Below are positions 50,593 to 58,926 of a stretch of DNA of 64,000 nucleotides, one piece after another; position 1 is the first letter of the stretch, and every line of letters starts with the position of its first letter. This stretch comes from Burkholderiales bacterium (GTDB taxonomy: Bacteria > Pseudomonadota > Gammaproteobacteria > Burkholderiales > Burkholderiaceae_C). The DNA lies in contig JACRAZ010000016.1 in NCBI GenBank assembly GCA_016213205.1, positions 1 to 64,000 of the forward strand, read 5' to 3'. Under the pieces are notes generated by a model, which had not been told where the DNA came from, searched no databases, and saw only the letters and a list, made by a program, of their open reading frames with translations. Made by a program: the position numbers and the translations under genes.

Positions 50593-51060
50593 ATGAACCG
50601 ACTGCTCGTGGCCACGGCCGCAGCCCTTGCGGCGCTGGCCAGCCTGCCCGCCGCCGCCCAGTTCCAGAAGCCTGAGGACGCCATCAAGTACCGTCAAAGC
50701 AGCCTGACGGTGATGGCCAACCACTTCGGCCGTGTCGCTGCCATGGCGCAGGGCAAGGTGCCGTTCGACGCCAAGGTGGCGGCCGACAACGCGCATGTCG
50801 TCGCCACGCTGTCGCGCTTGCCTTTCACCGCCTTCGGCGAGGGCACCGACAAGGGCGCCCCCAATCGCGCCAAGCCCGAGATCTGGAAGGAGCAGGCCAA
50901 GTTCAAGGACGCGGCCGAGAAGATGGCCGGCGAAGTGGCCAAGCTCGAGGCTGCCGCCAAGGCGGGCAACCTGGATGCGATCAAGGCCGCGGTCGGTGCC
51001 GTCGGCGGCAGCTGCAAGGCCTGCCACGACGACTTCCGCGCCGAGAAGTACAGCAACTGA
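50593..51060 (+). CDS. Cytochrome c' (class II)
   Basis: This 155-aa periplasmic protein has a signal (MNRLLVATAAALAALASLPAAAQ), a four-helix bundle and the C-terminal haem site CKACHDDFR (Cys141, Cys144, His145), the layout of class II c-type cytochromes. Cytochrome c' binds NO or CO and protects against nitrosative stress. GGAGG precedes the ATG. A strong terminator follows. Confidence 0.94.
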   Translation: MNRLLVATAAALAALASLPAAAQFQKPEDAIKYRQSSLTVMANHFGRVAAMAQGKVPFDAKVAADNAHVVATLSRLPFTAFGEGTDKGAPNRAKPEIWKEQAKFKDAAEKMAGEVAKLEAAAKAGNLDAIKAAVGAVGGSCKACHDDFRAEKYSN

Positions 51061-51081
51061 GCGCTGCCCCGGCCAGCACGA

Positions 51082-51105
51082 AGCCCCGCCGTGCGGGGCT
51101 TTTTT
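51082..51105 (+). terminator. Rho-independent terminator after cytochrome c'
   Basis: AGCCCCGC (51082-51089) pairs with GCGGGGCT (51093-51100) around a CGT loop and is followed by a run of six T residues. It separates the cytochrome gene from the convergent AlaX gene. Confidence 0.9.
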
Positions 51106-51114
51106 CTGGGCCGA

Positions 51115-51834
51115 TCAGTCCGGCGTGGCGAAGCCGAGCACGACCCGGCGCGTCCGGGCGGACTTCTTCTCGATCTTGGTGACGACCACGGCGCCGATCT
51201 CGGTGGTGTTGGCCACGTGGGTGCCTCCGCAGGGTTGCAGGTCGACACCCTCGATGGCGATCACGCGCACCCGGCCCTGGCCGCGCGGGGGCTGCACGCT
51301 CATGCTGCGCACCAGGCCCGGCTTGGCATCGAGCTCGGCCTCGCTGATCCAGCGGTGCTCCACGGCGTGGGCTTCGGCCACCAGGCGCGCGAGGCCGGCG
51401 TTGAGCACGTCCTTGTCCAGCGGCTCGGTCATGTGGAAGTCCAGCCGCGCGTAATCAACCGTGATCGAGCAGCCGTCCACCGGGTGCGGCACCAGCGCGC
51501 ACAGCAGGTGCGTCGCGGTGTGAAAGCGCATGTGGCGATGGCGCCGCCGCCAGTCGATGCGGGCCGTGACGGTGTCGCCCACCGCCCAGCCGGCCAGGTC
51601 GGCCCCTTCGGCCGGCAGGTGCACGATGGTGCCGGGATCGACCCCCTTGCGGGTGTCGACAATGGCCAGTTCGCGGCCGTCGGCCTGGCGCAGCAGGCCA
51701 ACGTCACCCGCCTGGCCACCCCCTTGCGGGTAGAACACGGTGCGGTCGAGCTGCACGCCCCGCGCTTCGAGGGCGGTGATGCGGGCCTCGCAGTGCTGCA
51801 GCCGGGCGTCGTCGCGGAACAGTGCTTCGGTCAT
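51115..51834 (-). CDS. alaX: Alanyl-tRNA editing protein AlaX
   Basis: This 239-aa stand-alone relative of the AlaRS editing domain has FYPQGGGQAGDVG, the zinc motif FHTATHLL (His-x3-His) and QPCGGTHVANT (Cys-x3-His), all intact. AlaX enzymes hydrolyse Ser- or Gly-tRNA(Ala). The size fits the type II/III class. It is the last gene of a five-gene overlapping run; its ATG overlaps the stop of the VOC gene by four bases. Placement with amino-acid enzymes suggests it guards translation when a mischarging amino acid accumulates. Confidence 0.93.
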   Translation of the reverse strand: MTEALFRDDARLQHCEARITALEARGVQLDRTVFYPQGGGQAGDVGLLRQADGRELAIVDTRKGVDPGTIVHLPAEGADLAGWAVGDTVTARIDWRRRHRHMRFHTATHLLCALVPHPVDGCSITVDYARLDFHMTEPLDKDVLNAGLARLVAEAHAVEHRWISEAELDAKPGLVRSMSVQPPRGQGRVRVIAIEGVDLQPCGGTHVANTTEIGAVVVTKIEKKSARTRRVVLGFATPD

Positions 51835-52487
51835 GGCGGGCTCGTCAGGGTGAGGGGGCCGCGGGGGGTGTGCAGGCGCACGCTCAGGCCGGGCAGGTCG
51901 GCCGCGGCCACGCCGCGCAAGCGCAGCAAGCGGTGCACCGGCGCCGGCAACCCGCCCAGCGTGACGGCGCCCAGTGTCACGCCCGAAGGCGGCATGTCGT
52001 CGGCGGGATGGCGCGCGCCCCATTCGATGAGCGTGGGCAATGCGCCGTTGCAGGCGATCGCGCCGTCCTCACGCACCAGGAGGCGCCAGGTCAGCCGGCC
52101 CTGGGGCGTGTCGCGTTCGGCGGCGATCGGCGGTCCGGGGTCGGTGCCCAGCGCGAACAGCGCATCGCGCAGGGGTTCGATCGGGCGGCAGCGGGCCACC
52201 AGGTGCACCAGGCGAGGGGTCTCGCGCACGGCCGCCTGCAGCGCGGGGTGGTCCATGCCGAACCAGCGCGCGCGTGCCGGGGGTGGGGCCTCGGGATCGA
52301 TGGTGATGATCTCGAGGTAACTGCCAGGATACGCGTCATTGGCCAGCGACAGCAGGCGGTTGTGTGTGCCCATCAAGGCATGACGTCCACCCGGCCCGGG
52401 GGTCGCGCCCAGCGTCTGCTCGCACCAGGCCACGCCCTGCGCCAGCGAGTCGGCCACGACGACGAGGTGGTCGACCTCGGTCGTCAC
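51831..52487 (-). CDS. VOC/glyoxalase-like domain protein
   Basis: This 218-aa protein starts with GTG 52487, overlapping the PhzF stop (GTGA). Two halves of the VOC fold are visible: TEVDHLVVVADSLAQGVAWCEQTLGATPGPGG with LEIITIDP, and a second RLVHLVARC block to the C-terminus (PHRLLRLRGVAAADLPGLSVRL). This corresponds to the glyoxalase-like domain of the YckE/PF13468 type. VOC proteins catalyse isomerisation, ring cleavage or thiol transfer with a metal. Which of these applies here is unknown. Confidence 0.82.
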   Translation of the reverse strand: MTTEVDHLVVVADSLAQGVAWCEQTLGATPGPGGRHALMGTHNRLLSLANDAYPGSYLEIITIDPEAPPPARARWFGMDHPALQAAVRETPRLVHLVARCRPIEPLRDALFALGTDPGPPIAAERDTPQGRLTWRLLVREDGAIACNGALPTLIEWGARHPADDMPPSGVTLGAVTLGGLPAPVHRLLRLRGVAAADLPGLSVRLHTPRGPLTLTSPP

Positions 52488-53320
52488 AGCGTCACCTGCC
52501 CCTGCACCACCGGGGTCACATCGCCGCCGATCCAGGTGGTGGCGCCTTCGGCCTGCACATGCACACGGCCGGCGCGGCCGAGCGCAGTGCCCTGGGCCGC
52601 GACGTAGCCGGGTGGCGCCAGGCCCTCGCCGATGAGCCATTGCGCCAGCCCCGCGTTGAGGCTGCCGGTCACCGGGTCTTCCGGAACCCCCAGCGAGGGC
52701 ACGAAGGCCCGCACCTCCCACTGGCATGCGCTGCCGGCCGGGTGCGCGCCCACCACGCCCAGCTTGAGCCCGCGCATCGCCGCGAAGTCCGGCTGCAGCG
52801 CCAGCACCGTGGCGGCATCGGGCAGCAGCGCGGCCAGCCAGCCCGGGCCGTTGTCCACCCACTGCAGGCGCAGCAACTGCTCGTCGCGCAGCTTCAGCGA
52901 AGCCAGCACCTGGGCCCGTTCCTCGGCGCCCGCCGGCCCGCTGCGGCGCAGCGGCGGCGCGGCAAAGGCCAGGCGCGCACCATCGCGGCGGATGCGCACC
53001 AGGCCCACGCCGCATTGCTGCACCACTTCGCCGGCGGTGCGCGGCTGGCCGCCTGCGGCCAGCCAGGCGTGGCAGCTGCCCAGCGTGGGATGGCCGGCAA
53101 ACGGCAGTTCACCACCGGGGGTGAAGATGCGCACGTGGTAGTCGGCGCCTGGCTCGGTGGGCGGCAGCAGGAAGGTGGTTTCCGACAGGTTGGTCCAGCG
53201 TGCGAACGCGGCCATCTGGGCTTCGGTGAGGCCGGCCGCGTCGTGCACCACCGCGAGCGGGTTGCCGCGCAGCGGCTGCGTGGTGAAGACGTCCAGTTGC
53301 GAGAAGCGGTGGGTCGACAT
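52484..53320 (-). CDS. PhzF family isomerase/epimerase
   Basis: This 278-aa protein has the diaminopimelate-epimerase-like fold: QLDVFTTQPLRGNPLAVVHDA, the catalytic Glu in TNLSETTFLLPP, GGELPFAGHPTLGSCHAWL, and the second-domain signature VPEDPVTGSLNAGLAQWLIG. PhzF itself isomerises trans-2,3-dihydro-3-hydroxyanthranilate, but most homologues act on unknown substrates; no phenazine genes are nearby. It overlaps the VOC gene downstream and follows the dehydratase by eight bases. Confidence 0.92.
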   Translation of the reverse strand: MSTHRFSQLDVFTTQPLRGNPLAVVHDAAGLTEAQMAAFARWTNLSETTFLLPPTEPGADYHVRIFTPGGELPFAGHPTLGSCHAWLAAGGQPRTAGEVVQQCGVGLVRIRRDGARLAFAAPPLRRSGPAGAEERAQVLASLKLRDEQLLRLQWVDNGPGWLAALLPDAATVLALQPDFAAMRGLKLGVVGAHPAGSACQWEVRAFVPSLGVPEDPVTGSLNAGLAQWLIGEGLAPPGYVAAQGTALGRAGRVHVQAEGATTWIGGDVTPVVQGQVTL

Positions 53321-53328
53321 GCTCGTTC

Positions 53329-54342
53329 CTACGATGTGAAGGGCGCGTCCTGCCGGTCGGCCAGCACCTGAGCGTAGACCTGGCGATCGACGTTGCCGCC
53401 GCTGAGCACCAGTGCCGTGCGGCGGCCAGCCAGGCGCGGCGCCTCCTGCAGCGCGGCGGCCAGCGCCGCGGCGCCGGCACCCTCGGCCACCTGGTGGGTG
53501 CACTCGTAGAGCCGCCGCATCGCGCCGGCGACCTCGTCGTCGCTGACCTGCACCACGCGCGCCAGGCCTTGCGCCAGGATCGCCAGTGCCTGCGGCTCGG
53601 GGGTGCGGCAGGCCATGCCGTCGGCGAGCACGGTGGTCACCGCGTGCGATACCGGCGCGCCCTGTGCGAGCGACAGCGCGTAGGCCGGTGCACCCGTGCT
53701 GACCACGCCGATGACCTCGGTGGCCAGGCCCAGGGCGTCGCGCGCGGCGATCAGCCCGCAGGCCCCGGAGCCCAGGCCGATGGGCACGTACACCGCGTCC
53801 AGCCTCGGCTGGGCGTCGAACAGCTCCAGCGCATAGCTGGCCACGCCCGCCACCAGGTCGGGGTGGAACGAGGGCACCATGTGCCAGCCCCGCTGCGCGG
53901 CGAGCGCCTGCGCGTGTTCGCGCGCGGCCTGGAAGTCGTCGCCGTGCTCGACCAGCTCGACCCCCAGCGCCCGCATCGCCGCGTTCTTCTCGCGGCTGTT
54001 GCCGCGCGGCACCACCACCAGCGCGGCCAAGCCGTGGCGGCGCGCCGCGAACCCGATCGACTGGCCGTGGTTGCCGCGCGTGGCGCTCACGACGCCGACC
54101 GGGCGCACCCCGCTGGCCAGCAGGCGCTCGAAGTAGACCAGCCCGCCGCGGATCTTGAAGGCGCCCACCGGCGTGTGGTTCTCGTGCTTGAGCCAGAGCT
54201 CGGTGCCGTCGTCCGGCCGCGGTGCCACCTGCGCCTCCAGCAGCGGCCAGCGGTACTGCGGCGTCGGCGGCAGCACGGCGTGCACGGTGCGCGCGGCGGC
54301 GGCCAGGTCGTCGCGGGCCGCGTCGCGTGCACCGGCCATCAT
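53329..54342 (-). CDS. PLP-dependent threonine/serine dehydratase-like enzyme
   Basis: This 337-aa fold-type II PLP enzyme has the Schiff-base lysine in HTPVGAFKIRGGL (Lys63), VSATRGNHGQSIGFAARRHG that holds the phosphate, and IGLGSGACGLIAARDAL and LVLSGGNVD. Without an ACT domain it resembles catabolic threonine dehydratase and EutB of hydroxyectoine degradation. It removes ammonia from beta-hydroxy amino acids to give keto acids. ATG 54342 overlaps the aminotransferase stop by four bases. Confidence 0.92.
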   Translation of the reverse strand: MMAGARDAARDDLAAAARTVHAVLPPTPQYRWPLLEAQVAPRPDDGTELWLKHENHTPVGAFKIRGGLVYFERLLASGVRPVGVVSATRGNHGQSIGFAARRHGLAALVVVPRGNSREKNAAMRALGVELVEHGDDFQAAREHAQALAAQRGWHMVPSFHPDLVAGVASYALELFDAQPRLDAVYVPIGLGSGACGLIAARDALGLATEVIGVVSTGAPAYALSLAQGAPVSHAVTTVLADGMACRTPEPQALAILAQGLARVVQVSDDEVAGAMRRLYECTHQVAEGAGAAALAAALQEAPRLAGRRTALVLSGGNVDRQVYAQVLADRQDAPFTS

Positions 54343-55544
54343 GGCGCCACCTCGCGCAGGCCGTCGAGGTGTTCGCCGAGCACGCGGCCGAGCACCGAGA
54401 CGCCGTCGGCAATGTCCTCCGGCGACAGTGTCACGAACGACAGACGCAGCGTGCGCGCATCCGGCGCGTGGGCGTAGAACGCGGCGCCGGGCACGTAGGC
54501 GATGCCGGCGGCCACCGCCTTGGGCAGCAGGGCCATTGCGTCGCAGCCGGCGGGCAGGCGCAGCCAGAAGAACATGCCGCCCTGCGGCTGCTGCCATTCG
54601 GTGCCTTCGGGCAGGTAGCGGGCCAGCGCGGCGGCCATCGCATCACGCTGGCGGCGGTAGCGCGCGCGGATCGTGGGCACGTGCTGGTCGAGGAAGCCGT
54701 TGCGGATGACTTCGTAGACGACACGCTGGTTGAAGCCCGGGGTGTGCAGGTCGGCCGCCTGCTTGGCCTGCAGCAGCTTGGGGCACAGCTCGTGCGGCGC
54801 CACCACGTAGCCGAGGCGGAAACCGGGCGAGAGCACCTTCGAGAACGAGCCCAGGTACACCGTGCCCTCGGGCCAGCGCGCGGCCAGCGGTGCCGGCGGT
54901 TCTTCGTCGAACCAGAGGTCGCCATAGGGGTTGTCTTCCACCAGCGGCACCCGCGCGGCCTGGGCGGCACGCACCAGCGCAGCGCGGCGTGCCTCGCCCA
55001 GCACCCGGCCGGTGGGGTTCTGGAAGTTCGGCAGCAGGTAGGCGAAGCGGGTGCCCGGTGCATCGTGGGGCAGGGCCTCGATCGCGTCCGGCAGCGGGCC
55101 GTCGCCGTCGCTGGCCAGGCTGGTGTAGATCGGCTCGTAGGGGTTGAAGGCCTGCAGCGCACCCAGGTAGGTCGGGGTCTCCACCGCCACCGGCGCGCCG
55201 GCATCGACCATCACCTTGCCCACCAGGTCCAGGCCCTGCTGCGAACCGGTGGTGATGAGCACCTGGTCGGGCCCCACGCGCAGGCCCATGGCGCCCAGGC
55301 GCTGCGCCACCCAATCGCGCAGCGGGCCGAAGCCTTCGCTGGCGGCGTACTGCAGCGCCTCACGCGGGGCGTCGGTGAGCACCTTGTCGCAGGCCGCGCG
55401 CACCGCTTCCACCGGAAAGGTGTCGGCCGAGGGCAGGCCGCCAGCCATCGACAGGATGCCGGGCTGCTCGGTCACCTTCAGGATCTCGCGGATGATCGAC
55501 GGGTTCAATCGCGCGCTGCGGCGCGCCTGGTGCCACAAGCTCAT
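54339..55544 (-). CDS. PLP-dependent aminotransferase (class I/II, 2-aminoadipate-type)
   Basis: This 401-aa fold-type I aminotransferase starts at ATG 55544 (MSLWHQARRSARLNPSIIREIL). The PLP lysine lies in LGSFSKVLSPGFRLGYVVAP. LPNFQNPTGRVL and VEDNPYGDLWFDEE supply cofactor contacts. It groups with the LysN/2-aminoadipate or MocR-like transaminases rather than AspC. It heads the enzyme run, 87 bases after the EamA exporter gene. The substrate is unknown but presumably the amino acid recognised by the divergent MocR. Confidence 0.9.
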   Translation of the reverse strand: MSLWHQARRSARLNPSIIREILKVTEQPGILSMAGGLPSADTFPVEAVRAACDKVLTDAPREALQYAASEGFGPLRDWVAQRLGAMGLRVGPDQVLITTGSQQGLDLVGKVMVDAGAPVAVETPTYLGALQAFNPYEPIYTSLASDGDGPLPDAIEALPHDAPGTRFAYLLPNFQNPTGRVLGEARRAALVRAAQAARVPLVEDNPYGDLWFDEEPPAPLAARWPEGTVYLGSFSKVLSPGFRLGYVVAPHELCPKLLQAKQAADLHTPGFNQRVVYEVIRNGFLDQHVPTIRARYRRQRDAMAAALARYLPEGTEWQQPQGGMFFWLRLPAGCDAMALLPKAVAAGIAYVPGAAFYAHAPDARTLRLSFVTLSPEDIADGVSVLGRVLGEHLDGLREVAP

Positions 55545-55631
55545 GGCAGGTCTCCGGATGGACAAGGGGATGCGGGGGCGCCCAGCGTAACGCCGGGCGA
55601 CCGGATGTGAACAGGGTGGTGGTGCACGGCG

Positions 55632-56567
55632 TCAACGCACCGGCATGCGCCGCGACAGCAGCACGGTGGCCATCACCGCGAGCGAAAACCCCACGGTGAC
55701 AGGGTCCAGCCGCTCGCCCAGCACCGGCACGGCCAGCCACATGGACAGAAACGGCTGCAGCAGCTGCACCTGGCTCACCCTCACGGTGCCCCCCAGCGCC
55801 AGGCCGCGGTACCAGGGAAAGAAGCCGAGCCACATCGACACCACGGCCACGTAGGCGAAGCCGGCCCAGGCCGCGGGCTGCACCCCGTGCGCCGGCCAAT
55901 CCAGCGCCACCAGCAGCGCGCTGGCCGGCAGGGTGAGGGGCAGCGCCAGCACCAGCACCCAGGAGATCACGGCCGCGGGCGGCATCGGCTCGCCGCAGTG
56001 GCCGCCGAACAGGCGCGCGCACTGCACATAACCGAAGCCACCAAACAGCACCGCGGCCAGCAGCCAGGCATCGGCGGCGTGCAGCGCGCTGCCGCCCTTC
56101 CAGGCCGCAAAGCCCAGCACCAGCGCGGTGCCCAGCAGCGCGCAGGCCCAGAAGGCGGCGCTCGCGCGCTGGCGCAGCCACCAGGCGCCCATGGCCGCCG
56201 TGGCCAGCGGCAGCACGCCGGTGACCACCGCCGCGTGCGCGGCCTCCACCTCGCGCACCGCCAGGCCGATGCACAGCGGAAAACCGAACACCACGCCCAG
56301 CGCGGCCAGTGCCAGCACACGCCACTGGGCGGCTTGTGGCCGCGCTGCGCCGGTGAGGCGCACCCAGGCCAGGGCCAGCAGCCCGGCCACCGCGGCCCGG
56401 GCGATGGCGACGAACAGCGGCGAGAGCTGCGGTGCCGCCGCGTCGCCGCCGGCCAGGCGCGTCATCGGGATCGTGAAGGCGAACGCCAGCACGCCCAGCG
56501 CACCCAAGAGCCAGCCGCGGCGCAGTGCGGCGTGGCTGGGGGGCGTGGGGATGGCGGGGCGGCTCAT
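55632..56567 (-). CDS. EamA/DMT family exporter
   Basis: This 311-aa inner-membrane protein has ten helices in two EamA repeats (LGALGVLAFAFTIPMTRLAGG; ALVLGFAAWKGGSALHAADAWLLAAVLFGGFGYVQ). EamA proteins often export amino acids or related metabolites. It is transcribed from the same intergenic region as the MocR regulator and upstream of the aminotransferase set, so it may export the same compound. Confidence 0.9.
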   Translation of the reverse strand: MSRPAIPTPPSHAALRRGWLLGALGVLAFAFTIPMTRLAGGDAAAPQLSPLFVAIARAAVAGLLALAWVRLTGAARPQAAQWRVLALAALGVVFGFPLCIGLAVREVEAAHAAVVTGVLPLATAAMGAWWLRQRASAAFWACALLGTALVLGFAAWKGGSALHAADAWLLAAVLFGGFGYVQCARLFGGHCGEPMPPAAVISWVLVLALPLTLPASALLVALDWPAHGVQPAAWAGFAYVAVVSMWLGFFPWYRGLALGGTVRVSQVQLLQPFLSMWLAVPVLGERLDPVTVGFSLAVMATVLLSRRMPVR

Positions 56568-56600
56568 GCGGCGCAGTCTAGGTCGCGGAACAGCACAGCA

Positions 56601-56655
56601 GCAGTACACTTGCCAATACAGTTTCTTCCTCTGTACTGCTGTTGATGGCAGTACA
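56601..56655. promoter_or_regulatory. Candidate MocR operators in the EamA/MocR divergent promoter
   Basis: The octamer GCAGTACA occurs at 56601-56608 and 56648-56655, and its reverse complement TGTACTGC at 56632-56639, with a partial copy near 56616 (TACAGT). Three matched sites in 55 bases between divergent genes is what a MocR dimer regulating both sides would need. TTGCCA (56610-56615) and TGTACT (56632-56637), 16 bases apart, could be -35/-10 for the regulator gene, placing one operator on the -10. Confidence 0.65.
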
Positions 56656-56667
56656 GATCGACCCACC

Positions 56668-58116
56668 ATGAACGCACCCCACGAGTTGGCAACCCGCCTG
56701 CTGCCGCGCGAGCGCAGCCAGAGCCTCGGCGAGCAGTTGGCGAGCCGGTTTGCCGAACGCATCCAGCAACGCGGCCTGGCGGCCGGTGCGCGGCTGCCTT
56801 CGGTGCGCGAATGCGCGCGGCTGCACGGCGTGAGCCCGAGCACGGTGGTGGCGGCCTACGACCAATTGCAGGCCCAGGGCCTGGTGGAGGCCCGGCGCCA
56901 GCGCGGCTTCTTCGTGCGCGAGGTGCCGGCGGTGCGCGCCGGCGTCCCGCCCGCGGCCCGGCCGGCCGGGCTGCCGCCGCCGGTGGACGCCACCGCGCTG
57001 ATCCGGGGCATGTTCCAGAACCGGCGGCCCCAGGCCGGCCCCGGGCTGGGCACCCTGCCCGAGCCCTGGCTGGACCGCAGCCTGCTGGAGCGTGCGCTGC
57101 GGCGAACGCTGGCGCAAGCCGGCGACGCGCTGAGCTACGGCGAGCCGGCGGGCGACGAGTCGCTGCGCCAGGCCTTGGCGCGCCGGCTGGGTGGCGACCT
57201 CGGCATCCCGGCCGACAGTGGCCAGATCGTCACGACGCTGGGCGCCACCCAGGCGCTGGACATCGTCGCCCGCACGCTGCTGCAGCCCGGCGACGCCGTG
57301 CTGGTGGACGAGCCCGGCTGGGCGGTGGAGTTCGCCCGCCTCACGCGCCTGGGCATGCGGCTGCTGCCGGTGCCACGCGGCCCGCAGGGGCCGGACCTGG
57401 CGGTGATGCAGGCGCTGCTGGCCGAGCACCGGCCGCGCCTGTACGCCACCGTGTCGGTGCTGCACAACCCGACCGGCCACATGCTCTCGCTGGCCACCGC
57501 GCACCAGGTGCTGAAGCTGGCCGATGCGCATGAGCTCACCATCGTCGAGGACGACACCTACGCCTGGCTCGCGCCGCCGCATGCGCCGCGGCTGGCGGCG
57601 CTGGATGGGCTGCAGCGCACGGTCTACGTCTCGGGCTTCTCGAAGATCCTGGCGCCGAACTGGCGCGTGGGCTACGTGGCCGCCTCGCCGGCGCTGACCG
57701 AACGTTTCGTCGACACCAAGCTGCTGATGACCCTGACCACGCCGGCGCTGCTGGAGCGGGCGGTGGCCTGGTGCCTGGACCAGGGCCTGTTGCGCCGCCA
57801 TGCCGAGCGGGTGATCGAGCGCCTGGAATCGGCCCGCCAGCGCGTGCGCCGCCTGGCCGAGGACGCCGGGTGCGAGTTCCTCGCGCCACCGCAGGGCCTG
57901 TTCGGCTGGATCGACACCGGGGTGGACACCGACCAGCTGGCCTCCCGCCTGGCCACCGAGGGCTGGCTGGTGGCGCCGGGCAGCCTGTTCCATGCCGTGC
58001 CCCGGCCCAGCACGCTGATGCGGCTGAACTTCGCCAGTTCGCAGGACACACGGTTCTGGCAGAGCTTTTCCCGGGCCCGGCGGGGCCTGCTCCCCACCCC
58101 GACCCCGGGGGTCTGA
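56668..58116 (+). CDS. MocR-type (GntR HTH plus aminotransferase) transcriptional regulator
   Basis: This 482-aa protein has a GntR winged helix at the N-terminus (about 15-85: LGEQLASRFAERIQQRGLAAGARLPSVRECARLHGVSPSTVVAAYDQLQAQGLVEARRQRGFFV). A linker leads to a fold-type I aminotransferase-like domain with PLP lysine in VSGFSKILAPNWRVGYV. MocR regulators such as PdxR and GabR sense PLP-amino acid adducts and usually control adjacent, divergent genes. Here those are the EamA exporter and amino-acid enzymes. Confidence 0.94.
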   Translation: MNAPHELATRLLPRERSQSLGEQLASRFAERIQQRGLAAGARLPSVRECARLHGVSPSTVVAAYDQLQAQGLVEARRQRGFFVREVPAVRAGVPPAARPAGLPPPVDATALIRGMFQNRRPQAGPGLGTLPEPWLDRSLLERALRRTLAQAGDALSYGEPAGDESLRQALARRLGGDLGIPADSGQIVTTLGATQALDIVARTLLQPGDAVLVDEPGWAVEFARLTRLGMRLLPVPRGPQGPDLAVMQALLAEHRPRLYATVSVLHNPTGHMLSLATAHQVLKLADAHELTIVEDDTYAWLAPPHAPRLAALDGLQRTVYVSGFSKILAPNWRVGYVAASPALTERFVDTKLLMTLTTPALLERAVAWCLDQGLLRRHAERVIERLESARQRVRRLAEDAGCEFLAPPQGLFGWIDTGVDTDQLASRLATEGWLVAPGSLFHAVPRPSTLMRLNFASSQDTRFWQSFSRARRGLLPTPTPGV

Positions 58117-58182
58117 AACGTAACGTCACCATCTGTATCCGACGCGCGCCGTACCATCTTCGTCCACCGCCCCACACCCCCC

Positions 58183-58926
58183 ATGTTTCGCTCCACCTTG
58201 CCGCAGGGCGCGCCTGACCTGATGCGCGTCAGCGAGTTCCGCCGCTATCTGGACGAGCTCGACCGCGTGCAGGGCACGGATGCGGCCAATTCGCGCCTGA
58301 CCTCGCTGAGCCCCTCGCTGCTGCAGGACCTGCAACGCTTCGAGCAGCATGGCCAGCAGAGCGAACTGCTCGAGGTGCTGGCGGCGGGCATCCGGCACAC
58401 GCAACCGTTGGCCATCCACCTGCAGTGGGGTGAGCAGGTGGTGACGTTGACCATGTTCCCGGCGCAGAAGCTCGCCCATGCCCCGGTGCCGATGAACAAG
58501 CTGCTCAGTGGCCGGCTGTCGGAGTTCCAGGTGCTGCAGGTCGAGCAGGCCACCTTGCGGGCGCCCGGCGACCGCGAGAGCACCCTGGTGGGCAACCCGG
58601 CACTGTACGCGCCGCTGGCGCCGCTGCTGTGGGCGATGGCGATGCGCGGCTCACGCGAGGCGCTGCTGCCCGAGATCGCCGGCCAGGCGGCCTACCGGGT
58701 GGCGCCCGGCGTCAGCTTCGACGGGCTGGACCTGCCGGCCGTGCTGGCGCGCTGCATCACGCGGCTGCGCCGCCAGACCTGCAACCTGCGCGAGATCTGC
58801 GAGTGGCCGGGCATCGACCGCGGCCGTGCGCAGCGCCTGCTCAATGCGGTGTACCTGCAGGCGGGGCTGATCGTCAGCCGCACGCACCCGGCCGCCACGA
58901 ACGAGGGCTGGGTGGGCTACCGCTGA
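58183..58926 (+). CDS. Conserved protein of unknown function
   Basis: This 247-aa soluble protein has no signal peptide or membrane helix. The N-terminal half is helical (FRRYLDELDRVQGTDAAN, LLQDLQRFEQHGQQSELLEVLAAGIRHTQPLAIHLQ). A beta segment follows (VTLTMFPAQKLAHAPV), then a C-terminal winged-helix-like part (CITRLRRQTCNLREICEWPGIDRGRAQRLLNAVYLQAGLIVSRTHP). That last stretch looks like a DNA- or protein-binding helix-turn-helix. It follows the MocR gene by 66 bases. I recognise it only as a betaproteobacterial unknown. Confidence 0.75.
   Translation: MFRSTLPQGAPDLMRVSEFRRYLDELDRVQGTDAANSRLTSLSPSLLQDLQRFEQHGQQSELLEVLAAGIRHTQPLAIHLQWGEQVVTLTMFPAQKLAHAPVPMNKLLSGRLSEFQVLQVEQATLRAPGDRESTLVGNPALYAPLAPLLWAMAMRGSREALLPEIAGQAAYRVAPGVSFDGLDLPAVLARCITRLRRQTCNLREICEWPGIDRGRAQRLLNAVYLQAGLIVSRTHPAATNEGWVGYR

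Follow-up and report, generated by a model that had tools for sequence, protein, structure and literature searches.

MocR regulons of the PdxQ type have been described as containing a DMT transporter, an aminotransferase, a PhzF-related protein and a GloA-family lyase, and the association of PhzF with DMT transporters was named as a predicted connection (Suvorova and Rodionov 2016, PMC5320631). Stand-alone tRNA editors encoded beside amino acid genes are also known: CtdA directly precedes the canavanine operon in Pseudomonas canavaninivorans, is found with canavanine genes in Rhizobium leguminosarum and is upregulated by its mischarging amino acid (PMC10018355). Hydrolysis of tRNA(Ala) mischarged with serine or glycine is known for AlaX proteins (PMC11295145), and the locally regulated EamA-family exporter AerA/AexA of Bacillus subtilis, which acts on three-carbon amino acids, is induced by 2,3-diaminopropionate (PMC11005379).

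The locus studied here lies in a 64,000-nucleotide stretch of a Burkholderiales genome, which we call the window. It shares with the PdxQ regulons the MocR regulator, DMT transporter, aminotransferase, PhzF and, when its VOC protein is counted as GloA-like, the fifth component, as well as two direct boxes and one inverted box, the commonest operator type in that study (PMC5320631). PdxQ regulons are described with B6 oxidases, under PLP metabolism, whereas the operon has no such gene; neither pdxO nor pdxH is found in it, and the genome has no second exact operator pair, with weaker sites possible. The word 'alanyl' does not occur in the main text of PMC5320631, although its supplementary target tables could still list AlaX. 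The likeness to CtdA lies in a stand-alone editor encoded beside enzymes handling a mischarging amino acid, but CtdA carries a B3/4 domain, acts on tRNA(Arg) and has a known substrate (PMC10018355); the AlaX of the operon has no B3/4 domain match. FthB of Streptomyces cattleya is likewise a stand-alone deacylase against a toxic amino acid, but it is related to ProXp-ST1, acts on tRNA(Thr) and belongs to the producer (cited in PMC11295145). AlaX-M (PDB 2e1b; PMC11295145) has the same domain make-up, zinc-binding residues and length as our putative AlaX, which differs in lying inside a MocR-headed operon and in scoring under the NF040865 cut-off. AerA/AexA, as described, has an AraC-family regulator and comes without enzymes or a tRNA editor (PMC11005379). 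The original prediction held that no system of this composition had been described. This does not stand for the MocR/DMT/PhzF/aminotransferase/GloA set, published in 2016 (PMC5320631), nor for an editor beside an amino-acid-analogue operon, for which CtdA is the precedent (PMC10018355); it may stand for the presence of AlaX in the set. Among the matches listed in the open-licence literature we saw no AlaX inside a MocR operon, and this appears to be the new element.

The predicted operon consists of six co-directional genes on the minus strand at 51115-56567. In transcription order these encode an EamA/DMT-family transporter, presumably an amino acid exporter (55632-56567, 311 aa), an aminotransferase of the LysN or kynurenine-aminoadipate type (54339-55544, 401 aa), a PLP fold-type-II dehydratase of the PRK06110 subfamily with the loop ATRGNHGQ (53329-54342, 337 aa), a PhzF-family isomerase/epimerase-like protein (52484-53320, 278 aa), a VOC protein of the Glyoxalase_3 type with a GTG start (51831-52487, 218 aa) and a predicted free-standing AlaX-M-like editing protein (51115-51834, 239 aa). 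Adjacent genes overlap by four bases at aminotransferase/dehydratase and on both sides of the VOC gene (PhzF/VOC and VOC/AlaX), and eight bases separate the dehydratase and PhzF genes. The gene order had been predicted correctly, as the stops and starts and the agreeing Pfam and NCBIfam searches for the operon genes and MocR confirm. Tight spacing at four of the five junctions is confirmed as predicted; at the fifth, the EamA and aminotransferase genes are separated by 87 bases (55545-55631), the sole loose junction, in which no exact copy of the operator octamer is found. A simple scan of 50900-58300 found no sigma-70-like site, and promoters are therefore left out of our account. It also gave five weak matches resembling terminators, four within the EamA gene and one within the aminotransferase gene, which we set aside as evidence.

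The MocR gene (56668-58116, plus strand, 482 aa) is divergent from the operon, and its product combines a GntR winged helix with a fold-type-I aminotransferase domain (PF00392 and PF00155, both above cut-off). Its best NCBIfam match is the PdxR equivalog (NF052282; 217 bits, under the cut-off of 320), and the aminotransferase of the operon also scores best, under cut-off, against the PdxR model. The octamer GCAGTACA occurs three times between the divergent genes, at 56601 (+), 56632 (-) and 56648 (+); the window holds four copies against 0.62 expected, and four were reached in 0 of 100 shuffles. The predicted divergent regulator with three matched octamers is borne out. The predicted operator (56591-56655) contains a degenerate CAGCACA at 56591, CAGTACA at 56602, an inverted TGTACTG at 56632 and a further box at 56648. 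We fitted the model CAGTACA-N4-CAGTACA-N23-TGTACTG to 20 regions between MocR and EamA genes, that of the window included, which were taken when MocR identity exceeded 50%, EamA identity exceeded 40% and the length was below 700. Best fits in these regions are 16-21 of 21 positions, against a maximum of 15 in 2000 mononucleotide shuffles, and in 19 of the 20 every box has at least five of seven matches at the same spacing; the region of locus L144 has no inverted box. The predicted sites thus make up a local operator in which some boxes are direct and one is inverted, which is a MocR-type feature. The perfect CAGTACA-N23-TGTACTG pair is found once in the 6.0-Mb genome, at the MocR/EamA intergenic region. 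A whole-genome scan for a wider regulon with the N23 pair gave three other sites, each with two mismatches, a number that the reversed control equalled or exceeded.

The enzymes of the operon belong to recognisable families. The dehydratase reaches 508 bits against NF004771 (PRK06110; cut-off 317) and matches threonine dehydratases in the PDB (7e-37), but its asparagine loop has an Arg at the position where solved threonine dehydratases carry Ala, which suggests that the substrate may be neither serine nor threonine. The loop ATRGNHG is found in 79 of the 80 dehydratase matches examined. The aminotransferase (PF00155) matches 2-aminoadipate transaminase (PDB 2egy, 1.7e-96). PhzF is the genome's sole match to PF02567 (4.1e-56), scores 180.8 bits against TIGR00654 (cut-off 76.2) and matches PhzF in the PDB (8.1e-32). 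The VOC protein matches PF13468 (5.7e-37), and a sequence search of the PDB at E 0.1 gave no solved relative of it; the transporter matches PF00892 over two stretches.

AlaX has an AlaRS editing domain and a second additional domain, and lacks an aminoacylation domain. In Pfam it matches PF07973 and the C-terminal portion of PF01411 above cut-off, tRNA_SAD and tRNA-synt_2c being the only families matched at E 0.001. Its PDB matches are AlaX-M (2e1b, 5e-18) and AlaRS (2zze, 2.9e-26). H105, H109, C202 and H206 are invariant or nearly so across 14 aligned sequences, and fit HxxxH and CxxxH, which we take to be the zinc-ligand motif of AlaX-M. Against the AlaXM equivalog NF040865 the protein scores 191.4 bits, under the cut-off of 300, as does the AlaX of locus L231 (233.7 bits). 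The AlaRS of the same genome retains the motifs HSATH and CGGTH; to our knowledge, the reason why cells retain free AlaX beside a self-editing AlaRS is not fully settled.

The family sample covers 19 of the 28 genomes that have AlaX and no dehydratase match, and 18 of the 49 with the dehydratase, for the most part those that score best. The dehydratase clusters contain PhzF in 17 of 18 cases, the aminotransferase in 17, EamA in 16 and MocR in 15, and AlaX lies within 6 kb in five. At the AlaX-only loci, 18 of 19 have a co-directional PhzF gene no more than 6 kb away, with the aminotransferase in 15, VOC in 14, MocR in 13 and EamA in 12. The dehydratase is the least constant part of the operon and optional in the genus, as G210, from the window's own genus, has the operon without it (locus L131). 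One family locus, L133, has AlaX and no MocR module. Among the genomes looked at, the module spans some three dozen genera of this one family.

Could AlaX and its neighbours be kept together by inherited gene order alone, with no joint function? Two unrelated neighbours, a cytochrome c' gene and a hypothetical gene (58183-58926), are conserved around the family clusters as well, so that synteny within the family overstates the link to AlaX, and elsewhere AlaX mostly has other neighbours. We nevertheless consider this explanation very improbable, since the same partners recur, reordered, in other families, orders and classes. Locus L222 of Magnetovibrio blakemorei has MocR / EamA-dehydratase-AlaX-GNAT-PhzF with two 4-base overlaps and a dehydratase at 476.9 bits against NF004771, L231 has MocR / dehydratase-AlaX-PhzF, L227 dehydratase-AlaX-tartrate dehydrogenase-PhzF and L209 MocR / AlaX-GNAT-PhzF. 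L045 and L233, from one genus, have MocR / VOC-AlaX-RhtB-EamA-RidA-aminotransferase-GST, L273 has MocR / EamA-ThiF/JAB/rhodanese-CysK-like-SAT-like-AlaX, L245 MocR / AlaX-RhtB and L208 MocR / AlaX. Dehydratase-like matches at 27-29% (L250, L292, L304) were excluded from the PRK06110 count. The window and L222 have a 4-base overlap into AlaX, as does L273 when a TTG start is assumed. The RhtB protein of L045 fits a cysteine/O-acetylserine transporter model best, under cut-off. The Rid-family protein of L045 and L233 belongs to a group that quenches 2-aminoacrylate. These reshuffled versions in distant relatives suggest that the partnership is real, and we reject incidental adjacency of AlaX; its link to the amino acid enzymes and exporter is unlikely to be incidental. 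The comparison named in advance as able to overturn the prediction, AlaX or PhzF being only incidentally adjacent, came out the opposite way, and layout, operator and comparative genomics together support a MocR-headed operon tying amino acid enzymes to AlaX.

We put at about an even chance that the locus confers inducible tolerance, as a tolerance module directed at an amino acid with which AlaRS can charge tRNA(Ala); serine or some other beta-substituted alanine is the most likely candidate. MocR with PLP would bind the amino acid as an aldimine, judging from its family, and switch the divergent promoters through the operator. EamA would export the amino acid, the dehydratase and aminotransferase would strip its amino group, and PhzF and the VOC protein may act on it or on its products. 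While the pool is high, AlaX would hydrolyse the wrong aminoacyl-tRNA(Ala), adding to the editing site of AlaRS itself, as the catalytic residues of the one and the motifs of the other suggest. Comparison of genomes supports the view that these genes form a set; the substrate is the weak step. The AlaXM score under the equivalog cut-off counts against this reading, as do the Arg in the dehydratase loop, the optional nature of the dehydratase within the genus and the conservation of unrelated neighbours in the family, and so does the fact that we know of no nameable role for PhzF or VOC in a serine route. With its coupling of AlaX to a sensor, an exporter and enzymes that deaminate, the operon points to a rise in a particular amino acid as the condition in which AlaX is needed, and its inducer would be a direct route to that condition. 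The locus could also help to find what the clusters' PRK06110 and PhzF-like proteins act on, and with it the principle of CtdA and FthB would reach tRNA(Ala).

Other functions for the same genes have to be weighed. A catabolic operon using a non-protein amino acid from plants or the environment as food, with AlaX guarding as CtdA does, has the precedent of CtdA adjoining canavanine genes in canavanine users (PMC10018355). The dehydratase and aminotransferase are of degradative types and a tartrate dehydrogenase lies within the L227 set, but the operon has no importer gene, EamA and RhtB/LysE being families best known as exporters, and we regard this as unlikely. Slightly less probable is a PdxQ-like regulon for the homeostasis of PLP (vitamin B6), in which MocR would sense free PLP, the DMT protein would move a B6-related compound and AlaX would guard against serine accumulating when PLP enzymes fail. 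The gene content of PdxQ regulons (PMC5320631) and the PdxR-directed scores of MocR and the aminotransferase speak for it, as does a phosphomethylpyrimidine-kinase gene (PF08543; L222:5473-6282) abutting the Magnetovibrio MocR gene, with a similar kinase gene ahead of the L209 and L227 sets. PF08543 is a family that includes pyridoxine kinases. The kinase ends a row of other genes identical in L222, L209 and L227, however, and so may be there by inherited order; moreover, no B6 oxidase or kinase is found among the operon proteins or the scanned module proteins of L045, L222, L227, L231 and L273, and the MocR groups differ, that of L222 fitting EhuR best.

A cluster for biosynthesis of, and self-immunity to, a toxic amino acid seems improbable. 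The gvg cluster has a MocR-like regulator, GvgR, with LysE exporters, at least one of which is required for survival (PMC8067088), FthB hydrolyses fluorothreonyl-tRNA in the comparable fluorothreonine case (as cited in PMC11295145), and the ThiF/CysK/SAT set of L273 looks biosynthetic. Yet the broad distribution over genera of one family is unlike that of strain-specific product clusters, and no ligase, NRPS or tailoring enzyme is found among the operon proteins of the window.

Returning to the tolerance module, we tentatively suggest, while leaning against it, that amino-acid-induced tRNA proofreading may be a general, repeatedly assembled module, with MocR joined to AlaX in roughly five or more proteobacterial lineages. 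It would mostly come with an amino acid exporter and a serine/cysteine-type PLP enzyme, shielding translation only while the level of a serine-like amino acid is raised. If this holds, AlaX-M in Proteobacteria would mainly guard serine, O-acetylserine and cysteine metabolism, rather than act as a housekeeping backup of AlaRS. Most AlaX genes are remote from any MocR module, which counts against the tolerance module. For Burkholderia, Paraburkholderia, Caballeronia and Pandoraea, 15 of 16 AlaX loci have no MocR module (one locus is 3.8 kb), and among the first 20 order-level AlaX loci the module is found in one (L045) and a 41% dehydratase relative in another. From a wider contig sample, 80 of 588 confirmed stretches were taken and 78 labelled, L190 and L217 being too short; MocR, PhzF, dehydratase or aminotransferase is found within 6 kb at 19 of these 78 loci. 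Several contigs end close to AlaX. In the phylum sample we looked at 63 of 65 AlaX genomes (without G268 and G240) and 20 of 38 dehydratase genomes. In favour of the tolerance module, AlaX is present in 22 of the 38 dehydratase genomes, compared with 43 of the 360 other genomes (p = 5e-10, ignoring kinship); against it, the two genes are adjacent in only two of the 22 (the window and G608). A serine/cysteine theme, to which the RhtB and Rid-family proteins above belong, also speaks for the module: of the 63 AlaX loci, 47 have a CysK-like gene within 5 kb (42 close, five of pseudomonad type at 31-36%) and 28 have a sulfurtransferase nearby. On the other side, MocR is near 10 of the 63 and PhzF near two. 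A 'GCS' motif in AlaX is more frequent among module-linked proteins (43 of 51 against 33 of 132), but we set it aside, since it tracks kinship and the regular expression misread some rows. An AlaX tree (FastTree, 185 rows, of which L096 and L208 were dropped for stops and near-copies removed, leaving 141) carries a loose 'module' label, L041 having merely a 41% dehydratase relative. Its deep branches are weak, and we therefore use it solely to note that MocR-linked AlaX proteins fall in separate places. Counted by genus, and in favour of the link, MocR is near AlaX in five of 40, with a chance of p 1e-3 to 1e-5 for eight to three MocR genes per 5-Mb genome.

On the minus strand of the window, from 56567 down to 51115, genes for EamA, an aminotransferase, a dehydratase, PhzF, a VOC protein and AlaX follow one another, and a MocR regulator gene starts at 56668 on the opposite strand. 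The original prediction had described this order with a divergent MocR at its head, four tight junctions (4-base overlaps or an 8-base gap) and three matched octamers at the MocR end. All of this is borne out: Pfam and NCBIfam profiles uphold the gene names of the operon and of MocR, three junctions are 4-base overlaps and one is an 8-base gap, with 87 bases between EamA and the aminotransferase, and three of the four copies of GCAGTACA in the window (0.62 expected) lie in the 100-base MocR/EamA intergenic region. The dehydratase is a member of the PRK06110 subfamily (508 bits against an NCBIfam cut-off of 317), the nearest solved structure in PDB to the aminotransferase is 2-aminoadipate transaminase (1.7e-96), and PhzF is the sole match to its Pfam family in the whole genome. 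A conserved hypothetical protein at 58183-58926, with no Pfam match at E 0.001, keeps its place next to MocR across several genera of the window's family.

The pattern CAGTACA-N4-CAGTACA-N23-TGTACTG was fitted to 20 MocR/EamA intergenic regions including that of the window. The best fits cover 16 to 21 of 21 bases, compared with at most 15 in 2000 mononucleotide shuffles, and all three boxes of the predicted operator match at 5/7 or better with constant spacing in 19 of the 20 regions; the region of locus L144 has no inverted box. In the window the first box of the predicted operator is degenerate (CAGCACA, 56591) and there is an additional box at 56648. Two direct boxes and one inverted box are also the commonest layout for MocR regulators according to Suvorova and Rodionov (PMC5320631). 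The exact operator pair occurs once in the 6.0 Mb genome, and from this sequence evidence MocR looks like a local regulator of the operon.

Among 150 sampled genomes of the family, the dehydratase is found in 49, AlaX in 53 and both in 25 (Fisher p = 0.006). Where the surroundings of the dehydratase were fetched (18 of the 49 genomes), the cluster contains PhzF in 17, an aminotransferase in 17, EamA in 16 and MocR in 15, and AlaX lies within 6 kb of it in 5. For AlaX genomes without a dehydratase match (19 of 28 fetched), 18 of the 19 loci have PhzF no more than 6 kb away and on the strand of AlaX, 15 have the aminotransferase, 14 VOC, 13 MocR and 12 EamA. AlaX therefore belongs to the cluster of this family as a rule, and it is the dehydratase that varies. 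In the AlaX and dehydratase-cluster loci seen, the dehydratase stands between the aminotransferase and PhzF only in the window and in genomes G339 and G296, and is placed after PhzF or VOC in the others. The gene order in the family is partly inherited, since a cytochrome c' and a hypothetical gene beyond the operon are likewise conserved. An Asp/Glu-racemase-like gene separates the aminotransferase from EamA or MocR in L138 (3327-4142, with a PF01177 match) and also in L137, L157, L164 and L176, and several other clusters have an extra GST, LysE/RhtB exporter or histidine-phosphatase gene.

Co-occurrence in other genomes, the check proposed with the original prediction, extends outside the family, where these partners are found again in different arrangements. 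In Magnetovibrio blakemorei (L222) MocR is divergent from EamA-dehydratase-AlaX-GNAT-PhzF, with 4-base overlaps at EamA/dehydratase and dehydratase/AlaX, and L231, from a class other than that of the window, has dehydratase-AlaX-PhzF beside MocR. The row in L227 is dehydratase-AlaX-tartrate dehydrogenase-PhzF, and AlaX-GNAT-PhzF is found in L211 and, with MocR, in L209. Two loci of one genus in a different family of the window's order (L045 and L233) share the order VOC-AlaX-RhtB-EamA-RidA-aminotransferase-GST after MocR. Shorter MocR-headed sets are AlaX-RhtB in L245, from the window's class, and AlaX alone in L208 (Burkholderia sp.). The MocR kinds differ, the best fit being PdxR in the window and EhuR in L222 (both under cut-off), which speaks for separate assembly of the sets. 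The AlaX tree, from which L208 was left out and whose deep branches are weak, has the MocR-linked loci in separate places. The gene set is real, conserved and assembled more than once.

Also in the window's class, L273 (1053-6582) has a MocR-headed row of EamA, a ThiF-JAB-rhodanese fusion, a CysK-like protein, a serine-acetyltransferase-like protein (named by eye; Pfam gives the hexapeptide repeat only) and AlaX. The row appears to encode an inducible thiocarboxylate pathway for making a cysteine-like amino acid, accompanied by an exporter and a tRNA editor. Four further loci from its genus (L246, L271, L272 and L274) share at least MocR, the CysK-like gene and AlaX with it; the gene-by-gene reading covers L273. 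L267 (5831-11063) has MocR with a PRK06110-like dehydratase, a PLP decarboxylase (PF00282) and PhzF, AlaX being absent there; the AlaX of this genome is next to a sulfurtransferase some 48 kb off.

Of 398 genomes sampled across the phylum, 38 have the dehydratase, 65 AlaX and 22 both (p = 5e-10, kinship ignored), and dehydratase and AlaX lie side by side in 2 of these 22, the window and G608. Within 5 kb of the 63 AlaX genes covered, a cysteine-synthase-like gene is found in 47 (42 close; 5 at 31-36%, from one pseudomonad-type genus); within the same distance of AlaX there is also a sulfurtransferase in 28, MocR in 10 (9 under a stricter threshold) and PhzF in 2. With genera as the unit, 5 of 40 have MocR near AlaX, for which chance gives p of about 1e-5 with three MocR genes per 5-Mb genome and 1e-3 with eight; the maximum per genome is at least eight (200 genomes, best 8 candidates per genome scored). 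The majority of AlaX genes lie outside any MocR module, which counts against the link. In the first set of 20 order-level loci, 1 has the module, and 15 of 16 in Burkholderia, Paraburkholderia, Caballeronia and Pandoraea are without it. Beyond Burkholderiales, a usual setting of free-standing AlaX has a cysteine synthase gene on its upstream side and one for a mercaptopyruvate-type sulfurtransferase on its downstream side (both named by eye from sequence), in some loci also with a GNAT protein. It was read in L214-L217, L219, L221, L226, L228 and L234-L237, with L231-L250 and L271-L310 as phylum-sample loci. Among the open-licence literature matches listed for this setting, nothing deals with it, and the alanyl-tRNA editing protein is not named in them.

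The strongest rival explanation is that the operon is a B6 regulon of the PdxQ type. Its make-up of MocR, transporter, aminotransferase, PhzF and GloA-like protein is that of the published PdxQ-type regulons, which in the excerpts of PMC5320631 combine MocR, a DMT transporter, an aminotransferase, PhzF and GloA, also include pdxO or pdxH, and are assigned to PLP metabolism; neither pdxO nor pdxH is among the operon proteins. In Magnetovibrio a phosphomethylpyrimidine-kinase gene adjoins MocR, which could favour this rival; in L209 and L227 this gene likewise comes last in a series of unrelated genes, and therefore its placement may be inherited order. The claim that no system of this composition had been described does not hold for the MocR/DMT/aminotransferase/PhzF/GloA part; AlaX in such a set was not found among the titles listed. 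In the open-licence literature, no title among the matches listed links AlaX to a MocR operon, neither AlaX with PhzF nor 'alanyl-tRNA editing' with dehydratase, PhzF, EamA or MocR was found, and MocR with alanyl-tRNA gave only papers unrelated by title. Comparable systems, as excerpts describe them, are CtdA, a stand-alone editor in front of a canavanine operon (PMC10018355), FthB, which removes fluorothreonyl-tRNA (as cited in PMC11295145), and the toxic amino acid FVG, governed by a MocR-like regulator with LysE exporters (PMC8067088).

For the amino-acid reading, AlaX is accompanied across lineages by serine/O-acetylserine/cysteine-type enzymes and by exporters of families that are known to handle amino acids of this sort. 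Excerpts of PMC11005379 describe export of cysteine and O-acetylserine by E. coli EamA and of three-carbon amino acids by its B. subtilis relative AexA, and the best fit of the L045 RhtB is the cysteine/O-acetylserine transporter model, under cut-off. The L045 and L233 sets include a Rid-family protein; in the excerpts cited, such proteins quench reactive enamines (PMC5320631), of which 2-aminoacrylate is named (PMC12172467). As the simplest common denominator, the best candidate for the shared substrate is serine or a different beta-substituted alanine. In this reading MocR would sense the serine-like amino acid, EamA would export it, the dehydratase and aminotransferase would deaminate it, and AlaX would strip it from tRNA(Ala). 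This logic of sensing, export, deamination and proofreading is a well-supported working model.

The asparagine loop of PRK06110 proteins reads ATRGNHG in the window dehydratase and in 79 of 80 relatives, as against ASAGNHA in solved threonine dehydratases, and many have a GSG phosphate loop instead of GGG. The arginine of ATRGNHG stands where serine racemase has its re-face serine, and is a caution against taking plain serine or threonine for the dehydratase substrate. Judging from these motifs, the PRK06110 dehydratases (53329-54342 in the window, and relatives) may not be ordinary serine/threonine dehydratases.

The AlaX of the operon, 239 aa long, is a free-standing editing protein with PDB matches to AlaX-M and the AlaRS editing domain and with 191.4 bits on the AlaXM equivalog profile, below the cut-off of 300. 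Its four presumed zinc ligands are invariant across 14 aligned sequences. AlaX looks like an addition to the cell's AlaRS and not a substitute, because the AlaRS of the same genome retains HSATH and CGGTH. Hydrolysis of Ser- and Gly-tRNA(Ala) by AlaX proteins is described in PMC11295145. At residues 121-123, many AlaX proteins from Burkholderiales or of the pseudomonad type read GCS and the cysteine-synthase-linked ones have other letters, a distribution that may reflect kinship only.
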